From a virus, in IMG/VR virus record IMGVR_UViG_3300035184_001114, positions 1 to 20,696 of that record: a stretch of 20,696 nucleotides of DNA; one strand, written 5' to 3'. Of this stretch, positions 766 to 20,200 are shown in pieces. Both the position numbers and the translations under genes were made by a program. The notes under the pieces were generated by a model, which was not told the origin of the DNA, did not search any database, and was given only the letters and a program-made list of their open reading frames with translations. Each line of letters opens with the position of its first letter. The first letter of the stretch is position 1.

Positions 766-1945
766 AGTTGTCTACTCCACTTGGTTTGGAACTAGTATAA
801 TATATAACGTTAGGTTTGCTTTCTAACCACGCCTGTGTTTTGTAATGGCTAGGTTGTGTAGGAAGCAAACTAAAAACTAATTGCGGATCAATATCATTAC
901 TTAACAACGGCTTAGGAATCTTTTCGTTAATAATAAAAATTTTCTTATTAGGAGCAAAGGAGTTTACACCCTTGTTCTTAATAAATTTATTACCTTCAAA
1001 ATAATCCTTGTTTTTAGTAAACCTAAACATAACACAAACGTCATCGCCTGTATAACCATTATCAAATAAGTTGTCTACAACAGTTTGTAACTGTTCTATA
1101 TTACTACTACTACACATAATTATACACTGATCTACAGTATTAAGCAATGAAAATATATCCAAATAGGGTATTAAATTTGAATTAATAAACCATTTTTGAC
1201 TATCTCCTAGTAACATTTTATCCAAAGGTTTCTTAGGTTTCATACTGTCAACGACACTATCGTCAAACACATTACACCCTAGTAACTTCGATTGTATTAC
1301 TGCACGTCTTGGATCATTTACTTCAATTACATTATTGTTATAAACATATCCATTTGTTTCTTTAGTTAACATAGGATAATGATCTAAAGCATTCTTTTTA
1401 AGTTCAATAATACTTTCATAATCATCTTTTATTTTTTGATCTATATTAAAGTTCATTCCTTTAATTAGATTAACCATAAATTCAACATTAGGTTCATTAT
1501 AATCAAATGCCCATTCTTTGGATTCTGCTTGATACATTCCTTTGTAGTAACTAGGCGTTCTTCTTTTCTTAACTTTGTTTACAATGTCAGCAATGAATGG
1601 GCTCTTTAGTACAATCTGTTCTCCGTCGATATATAAACTTTTAGTTCTATCAATAGTTCTAAAAGGCCATTTGAATGTTTGCTTATCAAGTATTGCTTTT
1701 GGATCAAATCCAGTACGTGCTAATAACGAACTGTATTTGTTAACAATACGCAGTCCGATATGACTTTGCTTTTGTGTAAACGGACTACCTGAACCTAATT
1801 GCTTACCTAAACTTTTTACAATAGCATAATCATATTGATCAATAGATACTTCGTCTCCAAAGATGTAATTACCTTCTCCAGAAAGATACATAATACATTC
1901 TTCGATATTCTGATCGGCGGCTGGTAAAGATTCACCCATATTCAT
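752..1945 (-). CDS. Hypothetical protein with HARP-like segment, encoded upstream of uvsW
   Basis: A 397-residue soluble protein of unknown function, co-directional with and overlapping uvsW. Residues about 118-164 (with YYKGMYQAESKEWAFDYNE) resemble the HARP motif of SMARCAL1-type annealing helicases, where a short 'Y.....KEW.F' core precedes the SNF2 motor. There is no Walker A or DEAD box. The C-terminal third (about 270-385) has alternating hydrophobic strands such as QCIIMCSSS and KKIFIIN that could be a degenerate RecA-like lobe. The ATG at 1943-1945 is preceded by AAGGA at 5 nt spacing. A good sigma70-type promoter sits just upstream at 1969-1997. Context suggests a role with UvsW in branched-DNA processing, but this is inference; the gene is otherwise unrecognised. 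Confidence 0.7.
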   Translation of the reverse strand: MNMGESLPAADQNIEECIMYLSGEGNYIFGDEVSIDQYDYAIVKSLGKQLGSGSPFTQKQSHIGLRIVNKYSSLLARTGFDPKAILDKQTFKWPFRTIDRTKSLYIDGEQIVLKSPFIADIVNKVKKRRTPSYYKGMYQAESKEWAFDYNEPNVEFMVNLIKGMNFNIDQKIKDDYESIIELKKNALDHYPMLTKETNGYVYNNNVIEVNDPRRAVIQSKLLGCNVFDDSVVDSMKPKKPLDKMLLGDSQKWFINSNLIPYLDIFSLLNTVDQCIIMCSSSNIEQLQTVVDNLFDNGYTGDDVCVMFRFTKNKDYFEGNKFIKNKGVNSFAPNKKIFIINEKIPKPLLSNDIDPQLVFSLLPTQPSHYKTQAWLESKPNVIYYTSSKPSGVDNCADM

Positions 1946-1968: not shown

Positions 1969-1997
1969 ATTATAGCACAATTATGTGTTTTGAGCAA
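1969..1997 (-). promoter_or_regulatory. Sigma70-type (early/middle) promoter for the HARP-like/uvsW operon
   Basis: Read leftward: -35 TTGCTC (1992-1997), 17-nt spacer, then TATAAT (1969-1974), with TGC directly before it making an extended -10. The predicted start near 1962 leaves a leader of about 17 nt holding the AAGGA ribosome site. The element overlaps the last codons of the upstream glycosyltransferase gene, so the two-gene replication block can be transcribed separately from the glycan cassette. The match is by eye. Confidence 0.7.
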
Positions 1998-2910
1998 GAA
2001 CTAATTTCTCTAATCTAGGAAGTAATCTTACCAATGGCAAGCCGTCTGCTATTTCGTCAATAAAATATTCAGTGTATAGTAAGTTATTAAACCAAATTAA
2101 TCGATCAGGTTTATGTAGACTTTCAATCCTACTATAGTCTTTATTTGACACATCATATGCTAAACTTTCTTTTCCTACAAATACAGGAACACCTGCTACA
2201 ACTGCTTGAAGTCCCGGATTGCTACTATGACTAATAACACAATGAGCACCGTCTAACGCCGCATCGAAATCAAATTCGTCATACGTTTGTTGGTATCGTT
2301 TTGGATACTGTAAATCTACATTTTTGTAATTGAAATTAAGTTGTCGAATAGTACTAGGATCAACTGGACTACGAGGGTGTGGTCTTATCTTTATATCTCT
2401 ATTAGTATGTTTTCTTATTTGTTTAATCTGTTCTTCTAGCCATTGGTCAACTGGAGGCATAGATCGCCATTGATGACTTTTGTTGTGTTGTGTGCATATC
2501 AATATGTATTTGTTATTTGCTGTTTCTCTCCACGGTTGTAAGTCTAAGTCAAACTTCTTTTGTCTAAACTTACTAGCATTTCTCAACCAGTTGTTAACAC
2601 TACTGTTAGATTCTTCTCCAAAGTATGCTTCTCTGTTAATACCGTCAATAGCAACTTTCCAACTTTGATTGCGTTGTAGCCCACCAACTTCTAATACAAT
2701 TATAGGTTTGTTATTTGCTTTACAATGATCCCATACTTCTTTGTTTCTAGCCATACGACCATTCCACAACACTGACCATATAACAGCAACATTACACATG
2801 TTGATATTCTTAGTCCATGGTACACCTGCTTTATCAAGACTGGTTTGAAAAGCACCAAACACAGGCCCTGAATTCATTGCACCAAACTCGTTAAACATTC
2901 CGAAGATCAT
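1981..2910 (-). CDS. GT-B-like glycosyltransferase, paralogue 1 of 5
   Basis: A 309-residue soluble protein whose C-terminal half resembles nucleotide-sugar-binding domains of capsule/LPS-type glycosyltransferases (the KpsC/KpsS-like fold is my best comparison, by motif only). Visible landmarks are IRPHPR at 175-180, AHCVISHSSNPG at 222-233, GVPVFV at 240-245, and a C-terminal WFNNLLYTEYF..E...G segment at 273-290 equivalent to the W...L.Y.QW..E...G of its four paralogues in this window. It lacks the DRW motif they carry; it has NWLRNASKF there instead. The ATG follows an AAGGTGG ribosome site. It sits apart from the leftward nine-gene operon and has its own late-type octamer 41 nt upstream (2952-2959). 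Substrate and acceptor are unknown. Confidence 0.75.
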   Translation of the reverse strand: MIFGMFNEFGAMNSGPVFGAFQTSLDKAGVPWTKNINMCNVAVIWSVLWNGRMARNKEVWDHCKANNKPIIVLEVGGLQRNQSWKVAIDGINREAYFGEESNSSVNNWLRNASKFRQKKFDLDLQPWRETANNKYILICTQHNKSHQWRSMPPVDQWLEEQIKQIRKHTNRDIKIRPHPRSPVDPSTIRQLNFNYKNVDLQYPKRYQQTYDEFDFDAALDGAHCVISHSSNPGLQAVVAGVPVFVGKESLAYDVSNKDYSRIESLHKPDRLIWFNNLLYTEYFIDEIADGLPLVRLLPRLEKLVLAQNT

Positions 2911-2930
2911 TTGCCACCTTTTCCATTAAA

Positions 2931-2937
2931 CTAAATA
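2931..2937 (+). promoter_or_regulatory. Candidate late promoter (CTAAATA) for the rightward glycan arm
   Basis: ACTAAATA at 2930-2937 resembles the T4 late octamer TATAAATA and the CTAAATA form reported for marine T4-like phages. Transcription would begin near 2943 and give a leader of about 27 nt with GGAG before the ATG at 2970. A TATAAT at 2944-2949 is an alternative sigma70-type -10, but its -35 (TTCCAT) is weak. Confidence 0.45.
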
Positions 2938-2951
2938 TACGTATATAATGT

Positions 2952-2959
2952 TATTTATG
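2952..2959 (-). promoter_or_regulatory. Candidate late promoter (CATAAATA) for the 1981-2910 glycosyltransferase
   Basis: Read leftward the octamer is CATAAATA, identical to those before the 726-aa protein gene and the nucleotidyltransferase gene. It lies 41 nt before the start codon, leaving room for a leader with the AAGGTGG ribosome site. It faces the rightward CTAAATA at 2931-2937, so predicted start points of the two divergent transcripts nearly coincide. Confidence 0.5.
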
Positions 2960-2969
2960 GAGTTTATAT

Positions 2970-3803
2970 ATGTCACGCAAATTTGCTGTATTAACAACCT
3001 TTAATCAAAAAGGTTTACAACTGTATGGTCAACGAATGATCAATAGTTTTGATGATCGAATGCCTCAAGAGATTGATTTGTACATCTATGCAGAAAGATG
3101 CTTACCAATAAACCGTAAAACAAAAAGAGTTATTAATATATTAGATCACGAGAAAACTTTGCCTGCTATGGTAGAATTTAAAAAGAAGTATATTGGAGAC
3201 CCTAGAGCAACAGGTCAAGGCCCTGATGGTAAAAGACTAGATGCTAAAAAAGCATTTAAGTGGGACGCTATTAAGTTTTGTAATAAAGTTTATGCAGTGT
3301 GTGATGCCGCAAGGCGAGCAAAAAAGGATGGTATAGATGTACTATTGTGGATGGATGCAGACAGTTATGTACATACTCCAATGCCGTTAACCTTCTTAGA
3401 AAAGTTTATTCCTGACCATGTGTTTACTTGCTTTTTAGGTAGAGGGCCAAAGTATACTGAGTGTGGTTGGTACACACTAAACTTAAATCATGAACACTGT
3501 GATAAGTTTATAGATGAATTTCAACGTATGTATGACGATGCTGAAAACGGTATCTTTAAAGAAAAAGAATGGCACGACAGTTACATTTATGATGTAGTTA
3601 GACGTTGGCATGAAACTACATATAATGTAACAAACAAAGATATATCAAGCGGAATACAAGGTGAAGGACATCCACTTATCAATAGTGAACTAGGACAATT
3701 TTTTGATCACATGAAAGGCGATGATCGCAAACGCAAAGGTCAAAGCAAACGCAAAGATTTAAAAGTCCAAAGACATGAGGATTACTGGAAGAGCGTAAGA
3801 TGA
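2970..3803 (+). CDS. GT-A-like glycosyltransferase with DAD motif
   Basis: A 277-residue protein beginning MSRKFAVLTTFNQKG, as in many phage GT-A-like transferases. LLWMDAD at 125-131 supplies the metal-binding DxD of nucleotide-sugar transferases, and a C-terminal HMKG at 247-250 resembles the second metal/phosphate-binding His of GT8-like enzymes. The tail from 250 is very basic (DDRKRKGQSKRKDLK). It is a distant paralogue of the gene at 9631-10479, which shares the start, the DAD and HFKG. It is the first gene of the rightward four-gene arm, with GGAG 7 nt before the ATG, and overlaps the next gene by ATGA. It likely adds a sugar to the glycan made by this cassette; the donor is unknown. 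Confidence 0.8.
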   Translation: MSRKFAVLTTFNQKGLQLYGQRMINSFDDRMPQEIDLYIYAERCLPINRKTKRVINILDHEKTLPAMVEFKKKYIGDPRATGQGPDGKRLDAKKAFKWDAIKFCNKVYAVCDAARRAKKDGIDVLLWMDADSYVHTPMPLTFLEKFIPDHVFTCFLGRGPKYTECGWYTLNLNHEHCDKFIDEFQRMYDDAENGIFKEKEWHDSYIYDVVRRWHETTYNVTNKDISSGIQGEGHPLINSELGQFFDHMKGDDRKRKGQSKRKDLKVQRHEDYWKSVR

Positions 3804-4390
3804 AGCAACCTTATTTAGAGGCTTTCTATCAAATATTTGACAAGTACAAGCCTGTAACTATAGGAGAAATAGGAACACACGACGGACGTACTGGTGTTGA
3901 GTTTTGTAAGTATTGTTTACAACATGCTAACAATATAAGTTACACAGGATATGATATATTTGATTTAGACACCGACGAAGACTTTCAACGTAACGAATTT
4001 AATGGTAAAGGACCTGGACGACAATGGGTCGCCGAAAAAGGATTTAATAAAGTACGTAGTCGTAATTCAAAATTTAAGTACAATCTTGTACAAGGGTTTA
4101 CAAACGAAACACTTACAAAAACAAAGTTTGATTTTGTCTTTATAGACGGCGGACATTCATATGAAACAGTTAAACATGATTACAATATGGTAAGCGATAG
4201 CACAGTACTTGTGTTTGATGATTACTATCAAGACGATGTTAAAAAATTAGTAAACGAAGTAATACAAAATGAAAATATTCCATTAATGGATTGGGATACT
4301 GTATTAGATTCAACAGGTTTACGTGCGGCAGAATTGCCTAAGTTACCTGAAGTAGGTAAGCAACATAAACTTGCAATATTCAAGGAGTAG
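3800..4390 (+). CDS. Class I SAM-dependent methyltransferase (Methyltransf_24-like), tandem copy 1
   Basis: 196 residues with EIGTHDGR at 23-30 (SAM-binding motif I), FVFIDGGHSYETVKHD at 112-127 and VFDDYY at 138-143. These are the signature of small methyltransferases common in polysaccharide clusters that O-methylate sugars. The next gene is a clear tandem duplicate, sharing EIGTHDG, an NGKGxGR insertion (67-74 here) and the IDGGH block. The start overlaps the upstream glycosyltransferase stop (ATGA). The target is unknown; sugar hydroxyl methylation is inferred from family and context. Confidence 0.82.
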   Translation: MKQPYLEAFYQIFDKYKPVTIGEIGTHDGRTGVEFCKYCLQHANNISYTGYDIFDLDTDEDFQRNEFNGKGPGRQWVAEKGFNKVRSRNSKFKYNLVQGFTNETLTKTKFDFVFIDGGHSYETVKHDYNMVSDSTVLVFDDYYQDDVKKLVNEVIQNENIPLMDWDTVLDSTGLRAAELPKLPEVGKQHKLAIFKE

Positions 4391-4392
4391 AA

Positions 4393-4968
4393 ATGAAGAG
4401 CCCATTAATAGATAATTTTTATAGAATATTTGATGTAGTAAGGCCTGCATCAATATGTGAAATAGGAACACACGATGGTAAGAGTGCAAAACAGATGTGC
4501 GAGTATCTTTTAGAACTAGGCATAGATGTTAACTACACAGGTTACGATTTGTTTGAAGATGCAAACGATGAAACACATAAGATTGGACACAATGGCAAAG
4601 GAACTGGTAGATTAAGTATTGCTACTGCGAAGTTACAATCAGTACGTGAAAAATATCCTACAAGATTTAACTATGTATTACACAAAGGCGATAGTACTAA
4701 AATTTTAAACACACCACAAAAATATGACTTTGCTTTTATTGATGGCGGGCATAATTACGAAATTGTAAAGCATGATTATTCTATGTTAAGTGAAACTCCA
4801 GTTGTTATTTTTGATGATTATATTATTAAAGGTGTAGCAGAAGCAGTTGATGAAATAGATAATGTATGGCAAATAGATACAAAATGTAAACGCAATAAAC
4901 GTAAACAAGCAGTACGATTTTTAGATAGTAGTATTGTTGATAAACTTGCAGAAGGAGTTATAAAATGA
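4393..4968 (+). CDS. Class I SAM-dependent methyltransferase (Methyltransf_24-like), tandem copy 2
   Basis: 191 residues, a diverged copy of the preceding gene. It has the same MK.P....FYRIFD-type start, EIGTHDG at 23-29, NGKGTGR at 67-73, FAFIDGGHNYEIVKHDY at 113-129 and IFDDY at 139-143. The C-terminus is shorter and basic around 164-171 (KCKRNKRK). AAGGAG precedes the ATG, and the end overlaps the next gene by ATGA. Retention of both copies suggests they methylate different positions or different sugars. Confidence 0.82.
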   Translation: MKSPLIDNFYRIFDVVRPASICEIGTHDGKSAKQMCEYLLELGIDVNYTGYDLFEDANDETHKIGHNGKGTGRLSIATAKLQSVREKYPTRFNYVLHKGDSTKILNTPQKYDFAFIDGGHNYEIVKHDYSMLSETPVVIFDDYIIKGVAEAVDEIDNVWQIDTKCKRNKRKQAVRFLDSSIVDKLAEGVIK

Positions 4969-5528
4969 ATTTACCCGAACATCTAGGTGGACACAAAAAT
5001 AGAACACACTTAGACGAAGGATCATTAGATCATTGTATAGAAACTTTACAAGTTAAATCAATGTTAGACATTGGGTGTGGTCCCGGAGGGATGGTAGCAC
5101 TTGCTAGAAGTAAAGGTTTAAAAGCATACGGAATTGATGGAGACTTTGAAGTCAAGCGTTCTAAAAAAGTATCTAAGTTTGTAACAATACACGATTACGA
5201 AACAGGTCCAAGTTCATTGGATGTTGAGGTAGACTTAATATGGTCAGTAGAGTTTTTAGAACATGTTTGGGAAAAGTATCAAGACAACTATATGAAAGAC
5301 TTTCAACGTGGTAAGTTTGTTGTTTGTACATTTAGTGAAAAGAATGGACATCATCACGTTAACATAAAACCAGAATCATATTGGATAGACGTATTTAAAA
5401 ATTACGGATTTAGCCATGATGCTAACATGACAAGAATGATTAGAGAAGTTACTACATTAAATCTTACAGGAAAATTTGCACACAAACCTTTTGTTAAGAC
5501 TCACGGATTGTTTTTTGTTCGAGACTAG
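4965..5528 (+). CDS. SAM-dependent methyltransferase, Methyltransf_11/23-like
   Basis: 187 residues, unrelated in detail to the two preceding methyltransferases. It has classic motif I (LDIGCGPGG at 34-42), an acidic residue after strand 2 (AYGIDGD at 55-60), and DLIWSVEFLEHV at 90-101, typical of UbiE/COQ5-like folds that methylate small molecules or sugars. A HHHVN stretch at 129-133 follows strand 5. GAAGGAG lies before the ATG and the start overlaps the previous stop. It is the last gene of the rightward arm; its TAG stop shares CTAG (5525-5528) with the stop of the convergent TylF-type gene. Confidence 0.82.
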   Translation: MNLPEHLGGHKNRTHLDEGSLDHCIETLQVKSMLDIGCGPGGMVALARSKGLKAYGIDGDFEVKRSKKVSKFVTIHDYETGPSSLDVEVDLIWSVEFLEHVWEKYQDNYMKDFQRGKFVVCTFSEKNGHHHVNIKPESYWIDVFKNYGFSHDANMTRMIREVTTLNLTGKFAHKPFVKTHGLFFVRD

Positions 5529-6184
5529 TTTGTTACAATAATACTAGTTTGACAGTGATTGCTTCTAGATAAGATATCAAACGATCTATTATATTTTTTA
5601 ATCCATTGGCCTAGTGCTTTGTATTCATGCTCTTTCCAAGTAGTGAACCATTTTTTATTTGTCCATGGATAAAATTCATCAAACACTATTACTGTACCTT
5701 TGTTTATTTTTGAATTTAAGCAATCAAGTATTGTTTTAGCACTACTATATAAGTCACTGTCTACATGTAAAAAACTTATATTATCAAAGTTATTTGATTC
5801 TATAAAAGCAGGTAATGATGTATCAAACCAACCTTGAATTAGTTCAACATTCTTTTTTACTTTTGGAAACTTCTTCTTTCCATCAGGTCTACCAAAGTGT
5901 CCTGCTTCAATTGTTTTCTTTTTATTAAGTTGCCACTCTTCAGGTAGTCCTTCAAAACTATCAAAGCCGTATATAGTTTGATCGGGTAATGCTTTTGCAA
6001 TATGATTTATTGTAGTTCCTCTACTAACTCCAAATTCTAACACAAGTCCATTAGTGTTGATGTGTGCAAGTGCATTATCTAAATTACTAAATCTTGCATC
6101 ACCTTTCCAATGTAGTTCAGGATACTTTGATTCTACGACCATAGCACGATGAAACTTTTCAATGTTATAATCTGTTGAATCCAT
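5525..6184 (-). CDS. TylF/macrocin-O-methyltransferase-like sugar O-methyltransferase
   Basis: 219 residues with VLEFGVSRGTT at 48-58 (motif I), GFDSFEGLPEEW at 73-84, LHVDSDLY at 139-146 and FDEFYPW at 168-174. The latter two supply the metal-binding Asp residues of TylF-type Mg2+-dependent sugar O-methyltransferases. I chose the ATG at 6182-6184 because it overlaps the previous stop as TAATG. An in-frame ATG at 6209-6211 would add nine residues but lies inside the conserved GEAWEH end of the upstream gene. It is the last gene of the leftward nine-gene operon. The presence of a TylF-type enzyme is among the better reasons to believe the cassette makes an O-methylated sugar. Confidence 0.85.
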   Translation of the reverse strand: MDSTDYNIEKFHRAMVVESKYPELHWKGDARFSNLDNALAHINTNGLVLEFGVSRGTTINHIAKALPDQTIYGFDSFEGLPEEWQLNKKKTIEAGHFGRPDGKKKFPKVKKNVELIQGWFDTSLPAFIESNNFDNISFLHVDSDLYSSAKTILDCLNSKINKGTVIVFDEFYPWTNKKWFTTWKEHEYKALGQWIKKYNRSFDILSRSNHCQTSIIVTN

Positions 6185-7119
6185 TATACGTATTTTCTCA
6201 TATGTTCCCATGCTTCGCCTGATGTTAGTTCATCAAAGTTCCAATGACACATACTTAACTTTTGTAACCATAATTCTCTATCAAATACGTCTGGCATTTC
6301 AATATTTGCAATATCACTATTACAAACATCTTGTGCTTGGCAATCAATAGGATCATCTACAAATACAGGTATTCCTTCTATCGCACTTGCAACTGCCGGA
6401 GAACTATTATAAACTACTGTACACCAAGCATTGTTTAAGTCCATTTGTAAACTTCTATTAAGACGATCACTTATATGTACGTTATCAAGACCGTGTAGTT
6501 TATATGCTTTTTCTTTTGGATTTAAATACTTTCCTGCTCTACGATCACCCGGATGTCCTCTAATAATAATTGGACGATCACTAAACTGTCTAATACGAGT
6601 TATAACATCTCTTGCCCAGTCTTGGTTATCTAACCCCTTCATTGACCAACCGCCATTACGTTGCAAACAAATTAAAATATGATTACCTTGTGTTCTCCAT
6701 TGTCTTGTACGTATACCTAAGTCTTGACTAACTTTAATCCAACGCTTTGGATCAGGATTATCTGAAAAATAATTTCCTGTAGTAGGAAATACACCATCCA
6801 TACTATAACGCAAATAGCGTTTAGTATTTTGTTTATCTAAGTATAGAAATAAATTACTGTCTACAATAATAGTTTTACGATTACGCTTTGCTTGTTCATC
6901 TAATACTTGTTTGCGTAATTGTAAGTGCGGAGTATGTGGACTATCTTCATGTACATATCCTTGTAATACTGCAACATCACTAGGTGTGTAAAGACCGTCG
7001 TGTGCTATACCTACATCACCGTGTACTTGTACACCTTGTACGAAACGTTTAAGAACTTCTGGCTTTTCTGGATTCTTATTACTACCAGGTATACCTTTTA
7101 GGTAACTTACTACTTTCAT
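6184..7119 (-). CDS. GT-B-like glycosyltransferase, paralogue 2 of 5
   Basis: A 311-residue member of the window's five-member family. Landmarks: KRW at 125-127 (DRW equivalent), W141 followed by GNHILICLQ at 145-153, IIIRGHPGDRR at 184-194, DLNNAWCTVVYNSSPA at 227-242, GIPVFVD at 249-255 and CHWNFDELTSGEAWEH at 291-306. The last block is closest to the copies at 7116-8150 and 10472-11434. It is coupled at both ends (ATGA with the upstream gene, TAATG with the downstream gene). No signal peptide or membrane segment, so it acts in the cytoplasm. Substrate unknown. Confidence 0.78.
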   Translation of the reverse strand: MKVVSYLKGIPGSNKNPEKPEVLKRFVQGVQVHGDVGIAHDGLYTPSDVAVLQGYVHEDSPHTPHLQLRKQVLDEQAKRNRKTIIVDSNLFLYLDKQNTKRYLRYSMDGVFPTTGNYFSDNPDPKRWIKVSQDLGIRTRQWRTQGNHILICLQRNGGWSMKGLDNQDWARDVITRIRQFSDRPIIIRGHPGDRRAGKYLNPKEKAYKLHGLDNVHISDRLNRSLQMDLNNAWCTVVYNSSPAVASAIEGIPVFVDDPIDCQAQDVCNSDIANIEMPDVFDRELWLQKLSMCHWNFDELTSGEAWEHMRKYV

Positions 7120-8150
7120 TCTGTTGGCTCAGGCATACCACAAAGGTCAACAATTTTTGGCCATATATGTGTCCATGCTCTACCTTGTGCCATTTCTGCT
7201 CTGTCCCATTGACAATATGAAAGATCATTAAACCATTGTTGAATGTCTTCACTACTTGCAAGTGCAGGATTTTCAACTGCTTCTAACTGTTTGCTAGATA
7301 CATGATATGCAAAGTTTCCTTCATCTACTGCAATAGTCGGGATACCATATGCAATAGCATCAATAGCACTACCACTACTATAAGTAATACAAGTTTTTGC
7401 TTCTTTTAAATCTTGTTGTAATGTTCTTGCAATTCCGTCACTCCATATTACATTAGGATAGTTTTTAAATACTATTTTTCCTATATCGCCAAAAAAGTTT
7501 TCGTGTCCTTTTTCACTCATTGCAGGATGAAATCTAACTCTTATTTCACGTTTTGTAATACTTCTAAGTTCTTCTATTGTATCTAATAACCACTCACCAT
7601 GATCAGATCCACGTAGACTAGCATCGCCGGGCAACTGTGTAAGTATTAAAATATTACCGTCTTTGTTATTAATCCAGCCTTTCCATCTAATGTATAAGTC
7701 TCCAAATTTACTAAGTCTGTCACTGTTTGAATTTTCGTTATTAAACTCTCCAGCACCACTTAAAAATCCGTTAAGTCCAATTCTATACATATCGTGATTA
7801 CTCTGCTTTACAATACTTCTAGCAAGTAAAGGAGTTTCAAGTACAATATAATTTTTACATTTTTCAATTACGCTGTTTCTTACACGATGATGTAAATTTT
7901 CTCTTTCTTTTGCACTACCAAATATAATACCAACGTCTGCTGTTTCATCTGCAACTTCGCCGTAATCTAAACTAATATCTACACCAATTTTACGGATTTC
8001 TTTAATATACTTTTGCATATTGAATTCTGTTAGTTCTTCTTTTACTTTTACACTTTGCGAAAAGTGCGTAACAAGGCCACGATAGTATGCACGTAATACA
8101 TCTTTTTCGCCGTTGTTTTGTCCTGTTAACATGTAGACTTTAATTTTCAT
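7116..8150 (-). CDS. GT-B-like glycosyltransferase, paralogue 3 of 5
   Basis: The longest family member at 344 residues. Landmarks: SDRLSKF at 143-149, GNILILTQLPGD at 165-176, IRVRFHPA at 203-210, DLKEAKTCITYSSGSA at 247-262, GIPTIAVDEG at 269-278, and SYCQWDRAEMAQGRAWTH at 311-328. The N-terminal 60 residues carry an extra helical stretch (KYIKEIRKIGVDIS) absent from shorter copies. Its end overlaps the next gene by ATGA, and its start overlaps the upstream gene by 11 nt. Likely a cytoplasmic nucleotide-sugar-dependent transferase; donor and acceptor cannot be read from the sequence. Confidence 0.77.
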   Translation of the reverse strand: MKIKVYMLTGQNNGEKDVLRAYYRGLVTHFSQSVKVKEELTEFNMQKYIKEIRKIGVDISLDYGEVADETADVGIIFGSAKERENLHHRVRNSVIEKCKNYIVLETPLLARSIVKQSNHDMYRIGLNGFLSGAGEFNNENSNSDRLSKFGDLYIRWKGWINNKDGNILILTQLPGDASLRGSDHGEWLLDTIEELRSITKREIRVRFHPAMSEKGHENFFGDIGKIVFKNYPNVIWSDGIARTLQQDLKEAKTCITYSSGSAIDAIAYGIPTIAVDEGNFAYHVSSKQLEAVENPALASSEDIQQWFNDLSYCQWDRAEMAQGRAWTHIWPKIVDLCGMPEPTE

Positions 8151-8925
8151 TCAATGCTCTCCTTGCTGTTCCGTCGTATAGTTCTTGTATATGATACTGT
8201 CCGTATGCTAGATGACATGCCCATTTATGAACTAAATCGCTATCTGGATAGTATGGTGTTTCAATTTTAGTTATATCATTAGATGCTACAGGGGTACTAG
8301 CATTGGGTGCAAGTCCAAAAGCAGGTACTCCATATAATACTGCTTCAGTTGCCGCAATACTTTGTAGTGTAACAACAGCATGTGCATTATCTAATTCGTC
8401 ATATATAGTTTTAATAATACGTTCTGGACGACTTGCTTTTTCACGTACAACTATAGGACGATCAGTGTGTTCTTTTATTTTACTAATTGTTTGCTCACGC
8501 CATTCGTTCATATCAATATTATAGAACTTTGCAGGTTTCTCACTTGGCATAACAACAAGAATATTACGTCCGTCTTTTTTCCATTTTGGAATCTTGTATT
8601 GTAATTTTTCCCATCTATCACTAGGTCTATCAATTATAGTGTTGTGTTGTAGATCATTCTTTACTATCCTATGAAACCATTTCCAACCATTAGGGTTGAT
8701 AGGAGATTTGTAATTACCTAGGTATCCACTATCCATATAGTAAAAATCTCTTTTATCTTCCCAACACTTTTTCATAATTTTATGTTTTAGTATACCACGT
8801 AGCACTATCGGGTGTGGTGCAGTTGTATCGTAATCAAACGTTTTATCCGATGTAGGTTTAGCATTACAACCTTCTGCAAACATATTAACGTATTCGTCTG
8901 TGCCGTTTTTACTTAAAAATATCAT
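8140..8925 (-). CDS. GT-B-like glycosyltransferase, paralogue 4 of 5, divergent active-site region
   Basis: 261 residues from the ATG at 8923-8925, which gives MIFLSKNG like the starts of its paralogues. The reading frame continues 17 codons upstream but that would overlap the preceding gene further. Family landmarks: DRWEKL at 103-108, W115, GRNILVVMP at 119-127, DELDNAHAVVTLQSIAATEA at 176-195, GVPAFGL at 199-205 and AYGQY at 240-244. The HP of the RPHP block is missing: VVREKASRPER occupies 159-169. The SS of the next block is QS, and the final G..W.H is reduced to DGTARRA. These changes mark it as a separate branch, possibly with a different donor or lacking catalysis. Confidence 0.7.
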   Translation of the reverse strand: MIFLSKNGTDEYVNMFAEGCNAKPTSDKTFDYDTTAPHPIVLRGILKHKIMKKCWEDKRDFYYMDSGYLGNYKSPINPNGWKWFHRIVKNDLQHNTIIDRPSDRWEKLQYKIPKWKKDGRNILVVMPSEKPAKFYNIDMNEWREQTISKIKEHTDRPIVVREKASRPERIIKTIYDELDNAHAVVTLQSIAATEAVLYGVPAFGLAPNASTPVASNDITKIETPYYPDSDLVHKWACHLAYGQYHIQELYDGTARRALNEN

Positions 8926-9634
8926 TTTGATAATCTTTCCAATATACATGTTCTGACATACGTTGTTTAAATTCATCTAACAAGTCTGCATAACTGTTGT
9001 TCTTTTCTAAACGTTCTGTTGATAATAAACTTTCGTCAACTCTATTAGGATCATAAAAAAATATGTTTACACTATTACTGCTAATACTAAAAAATTTATA
9101 TCCTATACTTTCAAAATAGTTTCTGTATTTTTTATAACTTACACCGTGCCATATTGTTTTACTATAGTGATCACAATCTTCAATAAAAGGAAATGATCCT
9201 ACAGCATCGTAACTAAACTTTCTATTAATCTCTGCACAAATAATACTAGGACGAAAGTTTAAATTAATTAAGTTAGTCATAACTTCGTAATCGTAACTGT
9301 CAATATCTAAACTAAACACATCTACATCCTTGTCAAATACTTGTATAATTTCTTTACATTTATCAGGAGTAATACGTCCTCTGTGGAAAGTAACATTCTT
9401 ATGCAGATTGATTTGTCGTTTCATATCAAATGCTGTACACGTATACTTGTGATTTTGTACTAAATTTTGTGTGCAATTTATTGATATACCTGTTGGACTT
9501 TTTACATCACTGCCCCAGCCGATTTCTACACATCGTTTAGTTGGCTTCTTGAGTGCTTTTACTAAATGTAAAATTATACCATCTTCGTCTGATTGGCAAT
9601 GATGCCTTTCGCTGTAAGGTAATCTAAACTTCAT
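8909..9634 (-). CDS. FkbM-like SAM-dependent methyltransferase
   Basis: 241 residues from the ATG at 9632-9634, which overlaps the upstream stop as ATGA and follows GGAAG; an ATG three codons earlier is possible. Visible motifs are CQSDEDGII at 13-21 (the SQ.EDGI signature), CVEIGWG at 35-41 (SAM motif I), FDMKRQ at 69-74, DVFSLDIDSYDYEV at 105-118 and IICAEIN at 131-137. These are the blocks of FkbM-type O-methyltransferases often found in LPS and capsule clusters. It follows a GT-A-like transferase and precedes a GT-B-like one in the same operon, so a sugar substrate is likely though unproven. Confidence 0.78.
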   Translation of the reverse strand: MKFRLPYSERHHCQSDEDGIILHLVKALKKPTKRCVEIGWGSDVKSPTGISINCTQNLVQNHKYTCTAFDMKRQINLHKNVTFHRGRITPDKCKEIIQVFDKDVDVFSLDIDSYDYEVMTNLINLNFRPSIICAEINRKFSYDAVGSFPFIEDCDHYSKTIWHGVSYKKYRNYFESIGYKFFSISSNSVNIFFYDPNRVDESLLSTERLEKNNSYADLLDEFKQRMSEHVYWKDYQNDIFK

Positions 9635-10479
9635 TTCTTCCATGTCCTAAAATTATTTTCTAACTCTTTTAGTTTGCCGTGTTTTTTATTTTTCTTTTCT
9701 TGTTTGTCAAGATCTTTACGTTCTGCACCTGTAGTAATTTTTTCAATATACTGATCCATCTTAGGATCTTTCTTTCTCGCACCTTTAAAGTGTCTAAAAT
9801 ATTTGCCTAGTACAGTTTCTTTAAGTGGACTGTGTGCAGTACGTTGTGGGTGAAAGTCAACTACTTTTACTCCGTTGCTTATTGCATCAATTACACAATC
9901 AGCAAATACATATGCATCATTTGGTTTAGGAAATCTACTTCTATCATTAACACTACGTGATAGATATATGTCTTCGTATCTGTTTACAAACGTTTCAGCA
10001 TAGTTGTGTTTTGTGTTAAACCAATATATACCTGTATCAGCATGTTGTATATTAGTACCAGCATACTTGCCTTTATTCATTGTTACACCCATGTACGCCG
10101 CAATATTATCTATAGGACACTGTTGCTCTAACCACTCTTGTGTTATATCTCTGTAAGTAACACTGTCTGCATCTAAGTATATAATTGTGTCTGCATCAAT
10201 ATTTCTACAAGCATGTACCCAACTAAATGCTTTGTAAGCAAAGCCTCTACTAAAGTGTGTTCCAATATAATCTAAATATTCTTTTAAAGGTTCACCACAT
10301 GCTTCGTATACATCTAGTTCTTTAAGTTTAGGTGAACTTAAAGGTAGTTTCATATCTTCAGTGTAGCAATACAATGGGATATCACTAGGCCAAAACTGTA
10401 GATAGGTTTCTACCATTTTGTTTGCCATTGAGTCGTAGTAGTCTTTATTAAATGTTGTTATACAAGCAAATTTACGCAT
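9631..10479 (-). CDS. GT-A-like glycosyltransferase with DAD motif, paralogue of the 2970-3803 gene
   Basis: 282 residues starting MRKFACITTFNKDYYDS, parallel to MSRKFAVLTTFNQKG of the rightward-arm gene. TIIYLDAD at 98-105 gives the DxD; AYKAFSW at 81-87 matches AKKAFKW of the paralogue; HFKG at 230-233 matches HMKG. The C-terminal 50 residues are rich in Lys and Glu and probably helical. I chose the ATG at 10477-10479, with GGAG 6 nt upstream, over a TTG four codons earlier. It overlaps the upstream gene by 8 nt. Probably a metal-dependent retaining or inverting sugar transferase; which sugar is not evident. Confidence 0.8.
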   Translation of the reverse strand: MRKFACITTFNKDYYDSMANKMVETYLQFWPSDIPLYCYTEDMKLPLSSPKLKELDVYEACGEPLKEYLDYIGTHFSRGFAYKAFSWVHACRNIDADTIIYLDADSVTYRDITQEWLEQQCPIDNIAAYMGVTMNKGKYAGTNIQHADTGIYWFNTKHNYAETFVNRYEDIYLSRSVNDRSRFPKPNDAYVFADCVIDAISNGVKVVDFHPQRTAHSPLKETVLGKYFRHFKGARKKDPKMDQYIEKITTGAERKDLDKQEKKNKKHGKLKELENNFRTWKK

Positions 10480-11434
10480 TGTTATCTCCAAATACTAACG
10501 GTTTTAGGTGTGCCCAACTTTCGCCTTTTGCATGTTCTCTTTGTGTCCATTGAGTGTATGCAATGTCATTACACCATTGTGTTCTATCTATATCGTAGTT
10601 TAAATTTTCTATATTTTCTAAACCTTGTTGTCTTATAGGCCAAATCATACTACCATCTTCAAATGCAAAAGTTGGAACACCTTCACATATTGATTCTACT
10701 GAACTTAAACTATTATATGTAATTACGCAATGTGCATCGTTGAGGTCTCGATATAGGCCGTCTGCTGTACAGTTGTTATTCTCGTCTGGCAAGTAACTAT
10801 GCAATGAATCTACATTTTCACTTACACTTATATCTAATCCTGGATATCTTTTTTTAAGTCTAAGCGACATCTTTGTTCCTCGACTTAAATTTCTAGGATG
10901 AGGTCTTAAAAGTATTGGACGATCCGTATGCTTTTTAATCTCTATTATAATGTATTCTACCCAATCGTAAAAACTGTTGTAATCTTTGTACAAATTTAAA
11001 AGGCTACTATCACCTTCTTTTTGTCCCATAATAATGATTTTATCACCACGACTTTTCCAGTCTTTTAATTCTACACCACTTTCTTTTTGAAATTTATTCC
11101 AACGATCTGGTGGACTATTTTCATTACCAAAGTTTCCTTCAGTCCACTTATAACTTGTCCAACCTAGTCTAGTCCAACCTAAATGTCTTCTAAAACAAGA
11201 ACTTTCATTAACTAGAAATGGCTTACCACTATCACGTATGAAACGGTACATAGGTCCTTGCCAGCCATTGTCAATTTTTGGTTTTAATAAATTTGTTTGT
11301 ATGTAAGCATCAGCGTTGTGCGGTACATCAATGTTGTCAACTATCTGAAAACTATCACCGTGACGTACTAATCCTTTTGTTAGACAAACTTGTAATGATT
11401 TTACTGAGCCTTTAATTCCTACAAGGGAGACCAT
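10472..11434 (-). CDS. GT-B-like glycosyltransferase, paralogue 5 of 5
   Basis: 320 residues and one of the most complete copies. Landmarks: PPDRWNKF at 108-115, W126, GDKIIIMGQKEGD at 130-142, ILLRPHPR at 174-181, DLNDAHCVITYNSLSS at 230-245, EGVPTFAFEDG at 251-261, AYTQWTQREHAKGESWAHL at 292-310. The spacing between the RPHP and TYNS blocks is widened by an insertion around 205-225. It starts within the end of the upstream GT8-like gene (16-nt overlap). It is a good reference copy for aligning the other four. Confidence 0.78.
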   Translation of the reverse strand: MVSLVGIKGSVKSLQVCLTKGLVRHGDSFQIVDNIDVPHNADAYIQTNLLKPKIDNGWQGPMYRFIRDSGKPFLVNESSCFRRHLGWTRLGWTSYKWTEGNFGNENSPPDRWNKFQKESGVELKDWKSRGDKIIIMGQKEGDSSLLNLYKDYNSFYDWVEYIIIEIKKHTDRPILLRPHPRNLSRGTKMSLRLKKRYPGLDISVSENVDSLHSYLPDENNNCTADGLYRDLNDAHCVITYNSLSSVESICEGVPTFAFEDGSMIWPIRQQGLENIENLNYDIDRTQWCNDIAYTQWTQREHAKGESWAHLKPLVFGDNNA

Positions 11435-12114
11435 TCTGTACCTGTTTTGTTTGCAGTTTCAATCCATAAGTTAGCATAGTCTACATCTTGTTTTCCTTTA
11501 AACCAAGGTCCACCTTCTGTAAAATGAATTGCTTTTGGTTTACCATCTTTTGGTTCTTTATACCAACCTTCTAACCAATTCCATTCATGGCTAACTTCGC
11601 CAATCTCTTCATCTTTTAACCAACTAAAACGATGCATAAATTTTCCTGTTTCTTTGTTTACCATACTAGGTATGACTTGCTGATTGCTCGGATGTCCGCA
11701 GTTCCACAATACCATTGAACTCCAATTCTTGCGTGGATATAAATGCTGTGTTTTACCGTCCATCTTATCCGAACCATCTTTAGGAGTATAGTCATGATGA
11801 ACACACATAACAGCATACTTGTCATCTCTTTGTTGTAGTAGTTTATCTACATCATCTAACCAAAGAAAATCGCAATCACAAAATAATGCCCAACCTTTAT
11901 AACCTTGTAGATGTGGAATTAAAAACCTGCTAAATGTAAATTCAGTAGACCCTAATGCGTCTGTTTCTCTAGTGTAAACACCACTGCGTTTAAGTTCAGG
12001 TAATTTAAGATATTTTATATCAATAGGTTCTTCTGTAGTGTGACGTAAACTATGCTCACAAACATCACTAGCAATTTTTTCTCTGCTGTCATATCCAATG
12101 TATACTGTATTCAT
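11419..12114 (-). CDS. GT8-like (GT-A) glycosyltransferase
   Basis: 231 residues with VYIGYDSRE at 4-12, FTFSRFLIP at 59-67, LFCDCDFLW at 77-85 (DCD metal-binding motif), YPRKNWSSMVLWNCGH at 126-141 and HFTEGGPWF at 197-205, where the late His resembles the C-terminal metal ligand of GT8-type enzymes. This is a recognisable family in marine phage and bacterial polysaccharide loci; it is distinct from the two MxRKFA-type GT-A genes here. AGAGAGGA precedes the ATG, which lies 2 nt after the upstream stop. Second gene of the leftward operon, right after the nucleotidyltransferase. Confidence 0.82.
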   Translation of the reverse strand: MNTVYIGYDSREKIASDVCEHSLRHTTEEPIDIKYLKLPELKRSGVYTRETDALGSTEFTFSRFLIPHLQGYKGWALFCDCDFLWLDDVDKLLQQRDDKYAVMCVHHDYTPKDGSDKMDGKTQHLYPRKNWSSMVLWNCGHPSNQQVIPSMVNKETGKFMHRFSWLKDEEIGEVSHEWNWLEGWYKEPKDGKPKAIHFTEGGPWFKGKQDVDYANLWIETANKTGTEWSPL

Positions 12115-12116
12115 TA

Positions 12117-12899
12117 TTATTCCTCTCTGCGTTCAATATCTTCTTCAACGCATAATTCTCCGTATTGAACTTCTAGTATATGACACGGTTCTTGGAAAGG
12201 ATTGTACCCTTGGTGCCAAACTTCCTTGTCAATATCGTAACCTTTTGTTAAGTGTGGTAATGTAACATCACTTACATGACCGTTAAATTCTGTTTGAACT
12301 TTACAACAGCCTTTAAGTACATACCACATCTCAGCACGTTTAAAATGCTTCTGCATTGACAGTTTTTGTCCAGGTGCAATAACAAGTTCTTTAACTTTTA
12401 CAGTTTTGCCAATTGTATATAAATCTCTATACCAACCCCATGTACGTTCAACTTTAGGATGTTTCCATTCTTCTAATATCCAACTACTTGAATTCTTTTT
12501 ATTTTCGCCACCAATACCAAACTTAAACTCAACGGTAGGATCATCTCCATATGTAAGCATTTCAGGAATGTTTTTCCATGTTCGATCTCCGCCGTTAGCA
12601 AATATAATTTTATCACCTAATGCGTTTAATTGTTTTGTTTTGAAGATTGCTCCACATGCACTATCGTCACTGTCATCAAAGTCAATAACATAGTCTACCA
12701 TATAAAATCTTTTTGTAATTTCAACACGTTCTTCAAGTGGCATAAAAGGTCGCCCTTTCTTGCGTGTTAGCCAATCATCTGAGTTTAGTCCTACCCAAAG
12801 TTCGTCGCCTAACTTCTTTGCTTCTTCTAAGTAGGCTAAATGTCCACTGTGTATAGGATCAAATCCGCCTGTTACTAGTACTATTGTTTTCTGCTTCAT
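12117..12899 (-). CDS. Fusion of cytidylyltransferase-type nucleotidyltransferase and mannose-isomerase-type cupin
   Basis: 260 residues in two domains. Residues 1-145 form a nucleotidyltransferase of the GlyC/RfaE-C type: GGFDPIHSGH at 11-20 holds the HxGH catalytic motif, GLNSDDWL at 37-44, and NSSSWILEEW at 136-145 stands where the ISTT-like motif occurs. It would activate a sugar or polyol phosphate with CTP or ATP. Residues about 152-260 form a type II cupin close to the C-terminal mannose-6-phosphate isomerase/ManC domain: LSMQKHFKRAEMWYVLKG at 180-197 with His185 and Glu190 as likely metal ligands. First gene of the leftward operon; CATAAATA ends 5 nt before the ATG and no ribosome site is seen. 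It may supply the activated sugar for the cassette. Confidence 0.85.
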   Translation of the reverse strand: MKQKTIVLVTGGFDPIHSGHLAYLEEAKKLGDELWVGLNSDDWLTRKKGRPFMPLEERVEITKRFYMVDYVIDFDDSDDSACGAIFKTKQLNALGDKIIFANGGDRTWKNIPEMLTYGDDPTVEFKFGIGGENKKNSSSWILEEWKHPKVERTWGWYRDLYTIGKTVKVKELVIAPGQKLSMQKHFKRAEMWYVLKGCCKVQTEFNGHVSDVTLPHLTKGYDIDKEVWHQGYNPFQEPCHILEVQYGELCVEEDIERREE

Positions 12900-12904
12900 A
12901 GTAC

Positions 12905-12912
12905 TATTTATG
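12905..12912 (-). promoter_or_regulatory. Late-type promoter octamer 5 nt before the nucleotidyltransferase start
   Basis: Read leftward, CATAAATA is followed by GTACT and then ATG. The T4 late octamer occupies about -13 to -6, which would put transcription start on the A of the ATG and make the nine-gene leftward operon begin with a leaderless message. The same spacing recurs at four other genes in this window. Confidence 0.6.
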
Positions 12913-12996: not shown

Positions 12997-13452
12997 TTAT
13001 ACGGAAGCGTCTTCCATACCTGCTACACGTAGTTTAACAATATTAGTAATTTGCCATTGTTTCATGTCAATACCTTTCATTACTCCTAACCACTTGTTAC
13101 GTAGTAGAGCAAACTCGTTAATGATCTTTTCAAAGTCTACTACATCTGCTTCACCGTCAACGTATTTTTCAACGTCACGACTGCTTAATGCTCTTTGATA
13201 GTTTTCTAAATATTGTTTAAAAAACCTTGATCTAGTTCTACGTAGTTCTATATTTAGGTATTCTAGTACTGCCTCAATCTCTTGTAATTGTCCAAAACGT
13301 TCTTCAACAATTCCTGGTAGGTTTGCGGCCTGCTTTTCTAAATTGCCAAACAACTTTGTTTGCTTACGTGCATCTTCAAGTTCGCCTTCATACCATAGAA
13401 TAGCCGGAGGTATGTTTGCAATATCTTGAGTAATTCTAGAATACCAATTCAT
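12997..13452 (-). CDS. uvsY: UvsY-like recombination mediator
   Basis: 151 residues, close to T4 UvsY length (137). In T4, UvsY loads UvsX onto gp32-covered ssDNA. The protein is predicted mostly helical: EGELEDARKQTKLFG near 18-32, the LPGIVEERFGQLQEIEAVLEYL stretch in the middle in two adjacent helices, RRTRSRFFKQYLENYQRALS near 71-90 with basic residues suited to DNA binding, and a C-terminal WQITNIVKLRVAGMEDA segment (from about 132). This pattern matches UvsY of marine T4-like phages as I know it; similarity to T4 UvsY itself is weak. Position after uvsX in the gp32 operon supports the call. It follows the acidic-protein gene with TAAATG (stop and start adjacent) and ends at a terminator. 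Confidence 0.82.
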   Translation of the reverse strand: MNWYSRITQDIANIPPAILWYEGELEDARKQTKLFGNLEKQAANLPGIVEERFGQLQEIEAVLEYLNIELRRTRSRFFKQYLENYQRALSSRDVEKYVDGEADVVDFEKIINEFALLRNKWLGVMKGIDMKQWQITNIVKLRVAGMEDASV

Positions 13453-13719
13453 TTAGTTCCACTCATCATCATCACTGCTATACGGGTCTTCGTCCCAATT
13501 ATCACTATCTTCGTCCTTATACTTTTCACCTTGTACATCATTTACTGCTTCACCTAAGTATGGATCTTCAGCACCTACGGCATAAAGTGTATCTTCGTTG
13601 ACACCGTTATCTTGACACCACTTAACGTATTGCGTTGCTAATTGTTCTTTATTGGTCTTTGGGACATACTCCGAAAAGATATCCCAAAGATCTATTAGTT
13701 GGTCTTCACTCATTTCCAT
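13453..13719 (-). CDS. Small acidic protein between uvsX and uvsY
   Basis: 88 residues from the ATG at 13717-13719, with GAGGG 10 nt upstream inside the uvsX end; a GTG one codon earlier and an ATG two codons later are alternatives. The N-terminal 60 residues look like a small helical domain (DLWDIFSEYVPK, ATQYVKWCQDNG). The C-terminal 25 are strongly acidic (DEDSDNWDEDPYSSDDDEWN). Overlaps uvsX by 14 nt and abuts uvsY. I do not recognise a named T4 counterpart. The acidic tail and location suggest a protein partner of UvsX, UvsY or gp32, but that is inference. Confidence 0.75.
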   Translation of the reverse strand: MEMSEDQLIDLWDIFSEYVPKTNKEQLATQYVKWCQDNGVNEDTLYAVGAEDPYLGEAVNDVQGEKYKDEDSDNWDEDPYSSDDDEWN

Positions 13720-14824
13720 CACTTATTTTTCCCTCAACATTAACATTTTCTGATTCTACAACTTCATCTTCTACAGATGTGTCTGCTTCTTCGTACTTAT
13801 GTCTAATTTTAGAAAAGTCATTCATTACGAGTTGTAATTTTTCACCAGTCCAATCTTTACGGTAGTGTAAAATTTCCTCGTTTTTACTGTTAACGAACTT
13901 GAGTCTGTTACCTTGTTGTGTTAGAAGTCCTTGTTTTTCAAACAAGTCTACTAGTCCACTGTAAGGATCCATTCCTGTTTCATAAGGGATCTTTACTTGT
14001 ACACCTTCAAAAGGTTTTGCGTAACGTGTTTTCATTACCTTACATGCGGCTCTAATACCACGTACATCTGTTACCTTTTTGCCATCAGCATCTTCTTTTA
14101 GTTTTAGTTTTTTCATTGCTACAACAATTGAAGATGCATACACAAAGCCTTGTCCTCCACTGATTTTATCATCAGGATCAAACATATCTTGCGATGCATA
14201 CGTATGGTTAGTACATACCATACCTACATTATAACTACCAAACATGTTAACTGTGTTACGTACAAGGGCTGTCAGTGCCTTAGGTTTTCTACCCATATCA
14301 CCTTTCATATCACCCTTTTGGAACTGGTCAACATCTGTTGGTGTTAATAACATACCTAGTGAGTCAACAACAAACAATACTTTAGGTCTGTCTTCTGTGT
14401 CTACAGAATCATAATCGTTTCTATAGTCTTTCATAAACTCACTTATAGTTTTAGCAACATCATCAATCATTGATATTGACAGTCTAAGCAATTTGCCTTC
14501 GTCTGTAGCAACACCTAATGCTTGTAGCCACTTTTCATCAAGGGCATTCTCTGAGTCAATTAGAACTACAAAGATACCTTGATCTTGTGCTGACTTTACA
14601 ATGTTACCACTTGCAAAGTATGATTTACCTGCGCCGGATTCACCTGCAAACACCGTCACCTTACCTAGAGGAATCCCTTTATGGAAGTCCCCTGAGATAA
14701 GATGATTAAGTGCGTAATTGCCGGTTGAAACCCAGTCAGTCGGATCGTTAAAACCTGTACCTAATCCTGTAATAGACTTGGTTAGGTTCTTACGAAATTT
14801 ACTAACGTCGAATGGTTTCGCCAT
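13706..14824 (-). CDS. uvsX: UvsX recombinase (RecA/Rad51-like)
   Basis: 372 residues (T4 UvsX is about 390). It forms filaments on ssDNA and performs strand exchange in recombination-dependent replication and repair. Walker A GESGAGKS at 61-68; DSENALDEKWL at 90-100 with the conserved Glu; Walker B VLFVVD at 149-154; putative DNA-binding loop with DPDDKISGGQGF at 216-227, then ASSIVVAMKK. The C-terminus from 345 is acidic. AGGAG precedes the ATG; only 9 nt separate it from gp32, so both share the 15917-15945 promoter. Confidence 0.96.
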   Translation of the reverse strand: MAKPFDVSKFRKNLTKSITGLGTGFNDPTDWVSTGNYALNHLISGDFHKGIPLGKVTVFAGESGAGKSYFASGNIVKSAQDQGIFVVLIDSENALDEKWLQALGVATDEGKLLRLSISMIDDVAKTISEFMKDYRNDYDSVDTEDRPKVLFVVDSLGMLLTPTDVDQFQKGDMKGDMGRKPKALTALVRNTVNMFGSYNVGMVCTNHTYASQDMFDPDDKISGGQGFVYASSIVVAMKKLKLKEDADGKKVTDVRGIRAACKVMKTRYAKPFEGVQVKIPYETGMDPYSGLVDLFEKQGLLTQQGNRLKFVNSKNEEILHYRKDWTGEKLQLVMNDFSKIRHKYEEADTSVEDEVVESENVNVEGKISDGNE

Positions 14825-18146: not shown

Positions 18147-18154
18147 TATTTATG
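18147..18154 (-). promoter_or_regulatory. Late-type promoter octamer before the 726-aa protein gene
   Basis: Read leftward CATAAATA, then ACAGT, then ATG. It lies in the 16-nt gap after the terminase stop. No Shine-Dalgarno sequence is visible, so a transcript from here would be leaderless. Confidence 0.6.
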
Positions 18155-20192: not shown

Positions 20193-20200
20193 TATTTATT
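20193..20200 (-). promoter_or_regulatory. Late-type promoter octamer before the 142-aa gene
   Basis: Read leftward AATAAATA, then TTTGT, then ATG. It fills most of the 18-nt gap after the preceding stop. Confidence 0.55.

Follow-up and report, generated by a model that had tools for sequence, protein, structure and literature searches.

What does a set of glycosyltransferase and methyltransferase genes do among the recombination genes of a bacteriophage? The question is raised by the IMG/VR record IMGVR_UViG_3300035184_001114, whose positions 1 to 20,696 form the window, that is, the whole stretch of 20,696 nucleotides analysed here. Positions 1981-12899 hold 14 intact open reading frames (ORFs) with tight or overlapping junctions, predicted to code for eight glycosyltransferases (GTs), four clear methyltransferases (MTs), the unverified MT5 and one nucleotidyltransferase-cupin fusion (NTcup). 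The order is GB1, a rightward arm of GA1, MT1, MT2 and MT3, then, leftward, MT4, GB2, GB3, GB4, MT5, GA2, GB5, GA8 and NTcup; GB1-5 (pairwise E values to 1e-27), GA1/GA2 and MT1/MT2 are sets of paralogs. A previous inspection, hereafter the sequence-only reading, had listed the same 14 genes, and its inventory stands except for the fifth methyltransferase (8909-9643). Our analysis supports a glycan-building and O-methylating cassette of soluble enzymes lying in a defined slot, and we lean towards the view that it encodes a late cytoplasmic pathway which would glycosylate the virion, the presumed acceptor, with an O-methylated, probably Kdo-containing oligosaccharide.

The slot was delimited in loci sampled from viral contigs, 80 retrieved through uvsY and 80 through NTcup, partly overlapping. 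Among 57 complete intervals between uvsY and the gene that we call o397, 25 are empty (uvsY and o397 no more than 103 bp apart or overlapping), 30 hold a cassette of 6-14.3 kb and two hold an NTcup-like gene only (L046 and L129). In the loci read, o397 precedes uvsW whether the slot is empty or filled. The sequence-only reading had placed the cassette between uvsY and uvsW; that interval holds, but the cassette and uvsW are set apart by the unmentioned o397 (752-1945). A core recurs in the 30 filled intervals, with the nucleotidyltransferase, GA8 and GB in all of them and GA in 29; in 26 of them GA8 comes directly after the nucleotidyltransferase, and in 27 the gene next to o397 is a GB gene. 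The remainder varies and includes genes for polysaccharide pyruvyl transferase, GT29-like, GT2, GT17 and GT25 proteins, FkbM methyltransferases, epimerases, UDP-glucose dehydrogenase, radical SAM proteins and 2-oxoglutarate (2OG) oxygenase. One conserved slot module (L104:2847-9928, also in L094, L105, L110, L111 and L127) carries two radical SAM genes, a 2OG oxygenase gene and several unknown genes. GB and GA genes were absent from all empty-slot records searched, one of 345 kb included.

The idea of a cargo insertion site, advanced in the sequence-only reading, is borne out as far as empty and filled alleles occur at one junction, and probably fails for a recent insertion, since on the uvsX tree the empty sites are nested within filled lineages and appear derived (3 changes against about 12 with shuffled labels). 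The cassette is thus probably not recent cargo but old and ancestral, with losses, although the tree is rooted through a long outgroup branch and change counts cannot prove direction. Ratios of nonsynonymous to synonymous substitution (dN/dS) of 0.02-0.24 against close relatives, computed on true orthologs only, indicate that the cassette genes of the window are maintained and not decaying.

The GB proteins suggest a Kdo-type residue. Searches of their sequences against Pfam and PDB hidden Markov models (HMMs) returned nothing significant, so that their placement is drawn solely from fold and motifs. The predicted structure of GB5 (pLDDT 90.9) matched KpsC, KrkA and WbbB at ranks 1-17 of a Foldseek search against the PDB (probability 1.00, E 9e-7), with TM-scores of 0.4-0.54 at about 10% identity, and the modelled fold is that of the retaining beta-Kdo transferases. 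This class is marked by QxxxD, containing the nucleophile Asp and a carboxylate-binding Gln, and by (K/R)xHP, involved in CMP binding (PMC12887879). Both motifs occur in GB3 (QLPGD, RFHP) and GB5 (QKEGD, RPHP), RxHP without the nucleophile Asp in GB1 and GB2, and neither in GB4. The pair QxxxD and RxHP was found in 39 of 243 GB-family ORFs versus none of 2287 other ORFs. The GB4 subfamily consistently lacks the CMP-binding HP and QxxxD, yet is under strong purifying selection (dN/dS 0.06-0.11), which suggests that its donor has changed or that it has no catalytic role. Matches to the GB fold were likewise obtained for proteins of TetV-1 (Tetraselmis virus 1), a giant virus of algae. Capsule_synth proteins were present in one of 14 NTcup-holding bacterial genomes, too few to compare.

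The other enzymes fit the building and capping of a sugar chain. The AlphaFold2 model of GA2 (pLDDT 87.4) matched alpha-3GalT, LARGE1 and glycogenin (Foldseek E about 1e-7), and K83, D103, D105 and H230 (GA2 numbering), which include the DxD motif and the C-terminal His of this predicted GT-A fold, are invariant in the family; the fold was computed for GA2, and GA1 is assigned to it through their shared family. GA8, whose match to Pfam GT8 is weak (E 0.044), keeps invariant DxD and H-x-x-G-G-P-W motifs in its alignment. MT1 to MT4 are supported by Pfam as class I methyltransferases, the nearest relatives of MT4 being the sugar O-methyltransferases CalS11 (TDP-rhamnose 3'-O-methyltransferase) and NovP, and MT5 matched nothing in the family scans; its assignment to FkbM was rejected since a profile comparison also gave no match. 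NTcup joins an HldE/TagD-type nucleotidyltransferase half to a ManC-type cupin half, both with conserved motifs, and no description of the cellular function of such a fusion was found in the literature.

No product of the slot appears to be a membrane protein. The sequence-only reading had noted this for the cassette, and it extends to related slots: transmembrane segments were predicted in none of 785 slot ORFs of at least 100 amino acids, or in none of 429 non-redundant ones versus 16 of 360 elsewhere in the same loci (p = 3e-6). Its further claim that flippase and lipid-phosphate sugar transferase are missing agrees with the absence of PF02397 (initiating phosphoglycosyltransferase), PF00953 (WecA-type) and PF01943 (flippase) from 11 related records, including those of 345-364 kb, in a search with positive controls. 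A complete O-antigen or capsule locus was therefore rejected. No slot holds an exporter in the form of a transmembrane protein; exporters were not searched by family.

The cassette would be transcribed late. On the minus strand of the window, at 12905-12912, 18147-18154 and 20193-20200, NATAAATA is followed after exactly 5 nt by ATG. Across loci the T4-late-like arrangement ATAAATA-N5-ATG precedes 43 of 75 NTcup genes versus none of 384 uvsX, gp32, uvsY, o89, uvsW and o397 genes, and it is also found before some o726, o142 and terL genes. The window holds no more TATAAATA-like elements in total than chance would give, so only this test of fixed spacing across loci is informative. It sustains the late-type promoters proposed in the sequence-only reading, and the CTAAATA element before GA1 is conserved as well. 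Since NTcup shares the element and its spacing with o726, a predicted virion structural gene, coexpression with virion genes may be expected; with the element only 5 nt from ATG, late mRNAs of the NTcup and o726 type should be nearly leaderless.

Homologs in other phages are found near structural and lysis genes. Caulobacter jumbo siphophages carry homologs of both GA8 and GB in the interval from the last tail gene to the endolysin gene (CcrColossus gp126-131, CcrSC gp511-516); in one podovirus GA8 and an FkbM methyltransferase are flanked by structural genes, and in another GB, MT and GA adjoin terL. Pelagibacter phage Mosig carries two GBs, GA8, GA and two methyltransferases, and cyanophage S-SCSM2R has GA8 beside KdsB and KdsA. 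In several filled lineages of the clade itself, KdsA and KdsB lie just downstream of uvsW (PDB E 3e-82 and 1e-28). KdsA was seen at eight loci, all of them filled, and was not found in some filled records, the 364-kb one included. We regard these neighbours as circumstantial evidence for use of a CMP-Kdo donor. As the window ends at uvsW, the corresponding position lies beyond it and its own supply genes are not visible. A second sugar and methylation island downstream of uvsW was observed at L257:4799-6900 and L258:2687-8792; it contains KdsA and KdsB and, in L258, additionally MetK (S-adenosylmethionine (SAM) synthetase) and three methyltransferases.

Under the virion reading, NTcup would isomerise and activate a sugar phosphate, GA8 together with GA1 and GA2 would act near the start of the chain, the GB paralogs would add a CMP-activated ulosonic acid (Kdo-like) or related residues, and the methyltransferases would cap a branched chain carried, probably, by a tail or head protein. 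Variable genes of other phages (pyruvyl transferase, GT29-like, epimerases, radical SAM) may decorate it, and such decorations could be swapped by recombination between the conserved flanking genes; the resulting glycan coat might mask or tune receptor binding or stability. In favour of this reading we counted the GT folds and families, the similarity to sugar O-methyltransferases, the ordered core with its variable remainder, the lack of transmembrane segments and of initiating phosphoglycosyltransferase, WecA and Wzx, the promoter common to NTcup and o726, the homologs beside tail, lysis, structural and terL genes, and the lack of a PF00303 match in a 364-kb filled relative. More tentatively, the proposal may be widened: a jumbo-phage clade, itself widespread, would possess a modular locus for virion glycosylation, the phage equivalent of the capsid glycans of chloroviruses. 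Its allelic slot would combine a soluble core that is conserved with decorations that can be exchanged, an O-methylated oligosaccharide with a CMP-ulosonic-acid (Kdo-type) donor would be added to virion proteins late in infection, and some members would bring their own supply of CMP-Kdo (KdsA/KdsB) and SAM (MetK). Several points weigh against virion glycosylation: the slot encodes no acceptor protein and the virion glycan is predicted from genes alone, near relatives with empty slots survive without the cassette, and KdsA accompanies only some filled lineages. Moreover, KpsC, WbbB and KrkA, which make capsule or LPS (lipopolysaccharide) glycans, are likewise no integral membrane proteins, so solubility alone does not exclude a host lipid acceptor.

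This last point leads to the strongest alternative, which we hold to be less likely while giving it real weight: working in the cytoplasm, the enzymes would lengthen or decorate a lipid-linked surface glycan of the host (O-antigen, capsule or core), host flippase and ligase would export the product, and the infected cell or its debris would then no longer bind competing or progeny phages. The fold and motifs of GB are indeed those of capsule and O-antigen Kdo transferases, KdsA and KdsB adjoin some cassettes, NTcup homologs are found in SAR11 and SAR86 genomes, and similar clusters of cyanophages and pelagimyophages were interpreted by their authors as means of host-surface modification (PMC7824862, PMC7029224). 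However, with a late-type promoter common to a virion gene, little time would be left to remodel the surface, even the 345-364 kb records yielded no membrane, initiating or export component, and the homologs in other phages sit within structural and lysis operons.

The cassette could also make a soluble glycosylated secondary metabolite or modify a cytoplasmic host factor, which we find improbable. MT4 resembles methyltransferases of antibiotic sugars, some slots include radical SAM and 2OG oxygenase genes, and one cyanophage cluster has been given a metabolite reading (PMC7824862); against this, the slot genes examined include no scaffold-making enzyme (polyketide synthase or nonribosomal peptide synthetase), and an oligosaccharide accounts better for the several sequential GTs of each slot. 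Glycosylation of phage DNA at hypermodified bases, T4-like or with multi-sugar glycans, is very improbable: phage GTs can hypermodify DNA (as cited in PMC12619734) and MT1 and MT2 weakly match a PHROG named DNA methyltransferase, but the signatures are those of ulosonic-acid transferase and TylF sugar O-methyltransferase, and PF00303 (thymidylate synthase/dCMP-hydroxymethylase), found in only one of ten related records and absent from the 364-kb filled one (fragments may miss it), led us to reject T4-type glucosylation.

Table 1. Genes and promoter-like elements of the window, with the evidence for each
Feature	Position	Strand	Evidence or remark
uvsW-like helicase, N-terminal part	1-765	-	Pfam ResIII 4e-16 and DEAD; 51% to Paride helicase; truncated by window end
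o397, right edge of slot	752-1945	-	No match in Pfam and NCBIfam scans
GB1, GT-B family member	1981-2910	-	RxHP kept, QxxxD replaced (QHNKS); weak Pfam Capsule_synth, E 0.057
CTAAATA late-type element, head of rightward arm (GA1)	2931-2937	+	Kept before GA1 in eight sampled loci
CATAAATA late-type element upstream of GB1	2952-2959	-	Motif scan
GA1, putative GT-A fold retaining GT, family of GA2	2970-3803	+	Paralogy to GA2
MT1, class I SAM methyltransferase (Methyltransf_24)	3800-4390	+	Pfam 6e-11; 44% to MT2
MT2, class I SAM methyltransferase (Methyltransf_24)	4393-4968	+	Pfam 8e-12
MT3, class I SAM methyltransferase (Methyltransf_23/11)	4965-5528	+	Pfam 5e-8
MT4, TylF-type sugar O-methyltransferase	5525-6211	-	Pfam TylF 1.6e-15; PDB CalS11 2e-7
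GB2, GT-B family member	6184-7119	-	RGHP present; QRNGG, nucleophile Asp absent; CcrColossus homolog
GB3, GT-B family member	7116-8150	-	Full QLPGD and RFHP signature of retaining Kdo transferases
GB4, GT-B family member	8140-8976	-	Neither motif (PSEKP, REKA); donor and activity uncertain
MT5, candidate methyltransferase	8909-9643	-	By inspection only; no family match
GA2, predicted GT-A fold retaining GT	9631-10491	-	Likely start ATG at 10479; model and Foldseek
GB5, GT-B protein, predicted KpsC/KrkA/WbbB fold	10472-11434	-	Q138KEGD142 and R177PHP180; model
GA8, GT8-like GT-A glycosyltransferase, core gene	11419-12114	-	phrog_28018, E 7e-55
NTcup, HldE/TagD-type nucleotidyltransferase and ManC-type cupin	12117-12899	-	First gene of leftward operon; Pfam CTP_transf_like 2e-16, MannoseP_isomer 2e-18
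CATAAATA late-type element, 5 nt before NTcup ATG	12905-12912	-	Fixed spacing across loci
uvsY, left edge of slot	12997-13452	-	phrog_231 7e-16
o89, small gene of the uvsX-uvsY interval	13453-13722	-	ORF list and locus maps
uvsX recombinase	13706-14824	-	Pfam RecA 2e-15
gp32-like single-stranded DNA-binding protein	14834-15829	-	Pfam gp32 1.7e-5, just under curated cut-off
o726, predicted virion structural protein	15961-18141	-	phrog_13484 4e-13; NTcup-type promoter at 18147-18154
Terminase large subunit (terL)	18158-19750	-	Sequence match

The flanking genes (Table 1) place the source of the window. Its terL is 55% identical to that of PA5oct/Paride-type Pseudomonas phages and 48.5% identical to that of Sinorhizobium phage Phosso, and because of these identities the window can be taken as a fragment of a PA5oct-related large (jumbo) phage; related contigs reach 345-364 kb. 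The nearest relatives of both terL and uvsY are found among PA5oct-type phages and Phosso, not cyanophages, so that a cyanophage or pelagimyophage origin was rejected and the marine T4-like setting assumed in the sequence-only reading has to be given up. In Paride uvsY adjoins the helicase gene directly; in Phosso three hypothetical genes separate the two. The UvsX-like recombinase of Paride (L001:5971-9016) is divided in two by a 1.4-kb hypothetical ORF, in an intron- or intein-like manner. Phage-like contigs were also seen in bins of bacterial metagenome-assembled genomes (L160, L162-L164), where a bin of Neomarinimicrobiota holds a uvsY-uvsW locus and one of Rhodobacteraceae holds terL-bearing contigs with NTcup nearby.

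NTcup has a wider distribution. Fused nucleotidyltransferase-cupin genes are widespread in SAR11 (L168-L211), beside polA, a major facilitator superfamily (MFS) transporter gene and PEPCK and not in a glycan locus, and occur in SAR86 (L165-L169) near UDP-glucose dehydrogenase; NTcup therefore cannot name the host. It is also present in an unrelated viral neighbourhood without the GB/GA cassette (L113, L116, L122, L130, L132, L147, L154 and L175), where ORFs of about 904, 243, 123 and 515 amino acids keep a conserved order. The neighbourhoods of cyanophages P-TIM68 and S-SSM7 were set aside as they hold only a stand-alone nucleotidyltransferase half, between DNA polymerase and uvsX, and no GT cluster.

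Glycan clusters of large phages have so far been taken as tools acting on host LPS, and the slot alleles, soluble content, late-type promoter and synteny described here point instead to the virion. Virion glycosylation on such a scale is seldom known in bacterial viruses; if it takes place, surface chemistry would be an exchangeable trait of phages with possible effects on adsorption, neutralisation and environmental stability, and the GB paralogs would represent a new use of the retaining beta-Kdo enzyme class. The virion reading can be tested now in those cultured Caulobacter phages that carry GB and GA8 homologs.

Among known systems, KpsC (GT107), the N-terminal module of WbbB (GT99) and KrkA (GT140) share the predicted GT-B fold of GB5 and the QxxxD and RxHP motifs of GB3 and GB5; the GB proteins differ in being phage-encoded, in the loss of the nucleophile Asp (GB1, GB2) or of both motifs (GB4), and in lacking any significant HMM match. 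CcrColossus and CcrSC (Dolichocephalovirinae) likewise combine GB and GA8 homologs with other GTs and, in CcrSC, a methyltransferase, whereas theirs is a small set in a tail-lysis operon of siphoviruses, with no NTcup found by tblastn. In mycobacteriophages too a glycan is attached to phage structural proteins; reportedly few phage GTs have been described there, compared with the 14 cassette genes here. The glycosylated subunits are those of the capsid and the tail tube (Freeman et al. 2023, as cited in PMC12619734). Chlorovirus capsid glycans consist of a conserved core and a virus-specific part, and O-methyl sugars and pyruvate ketals are known among virion glycans of nucleocytoplasmic large DNA viruses (PMC7019647, PMC9614988). 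Chlorovirus PBCV-1 and mimivirus thus resemble our phages in their virus-encoded soluble GTs and methyltransferases and in a core with decorations; they differ in their eukaryotic hosts, in largely different GT families and in that the virion glycan has been demonstrated there and is predicted here from genes. Clusters of P-SSM2-type cyanophages and pelagimyophages contain GTs, epimerases, HIGH-superfamily nucleotidyltransferases, cupins and O-methyltransferases and are sporadic (PMC7824862, PMC7029224). Our cassette is similar to these LPS/capsule clusters and hypervariable regions as a glycan gene set sporadically present in large phages, and unlike them in its lineage, its site between uvsY and o397-uvsW, its fused nucleotidyltransferase-cupin, its fixed core order, its exclusively soluble products and its virion-shared late-type promoter. 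Glycan clusters in large phages are thus already known; new with respect to the glycan-cluster literature read are the fixed slot with empty and filled alleles, the soluble core-plus-variable content, the Kdo-transferase-like paralogs and the late-type promoter shared with a virion gene.

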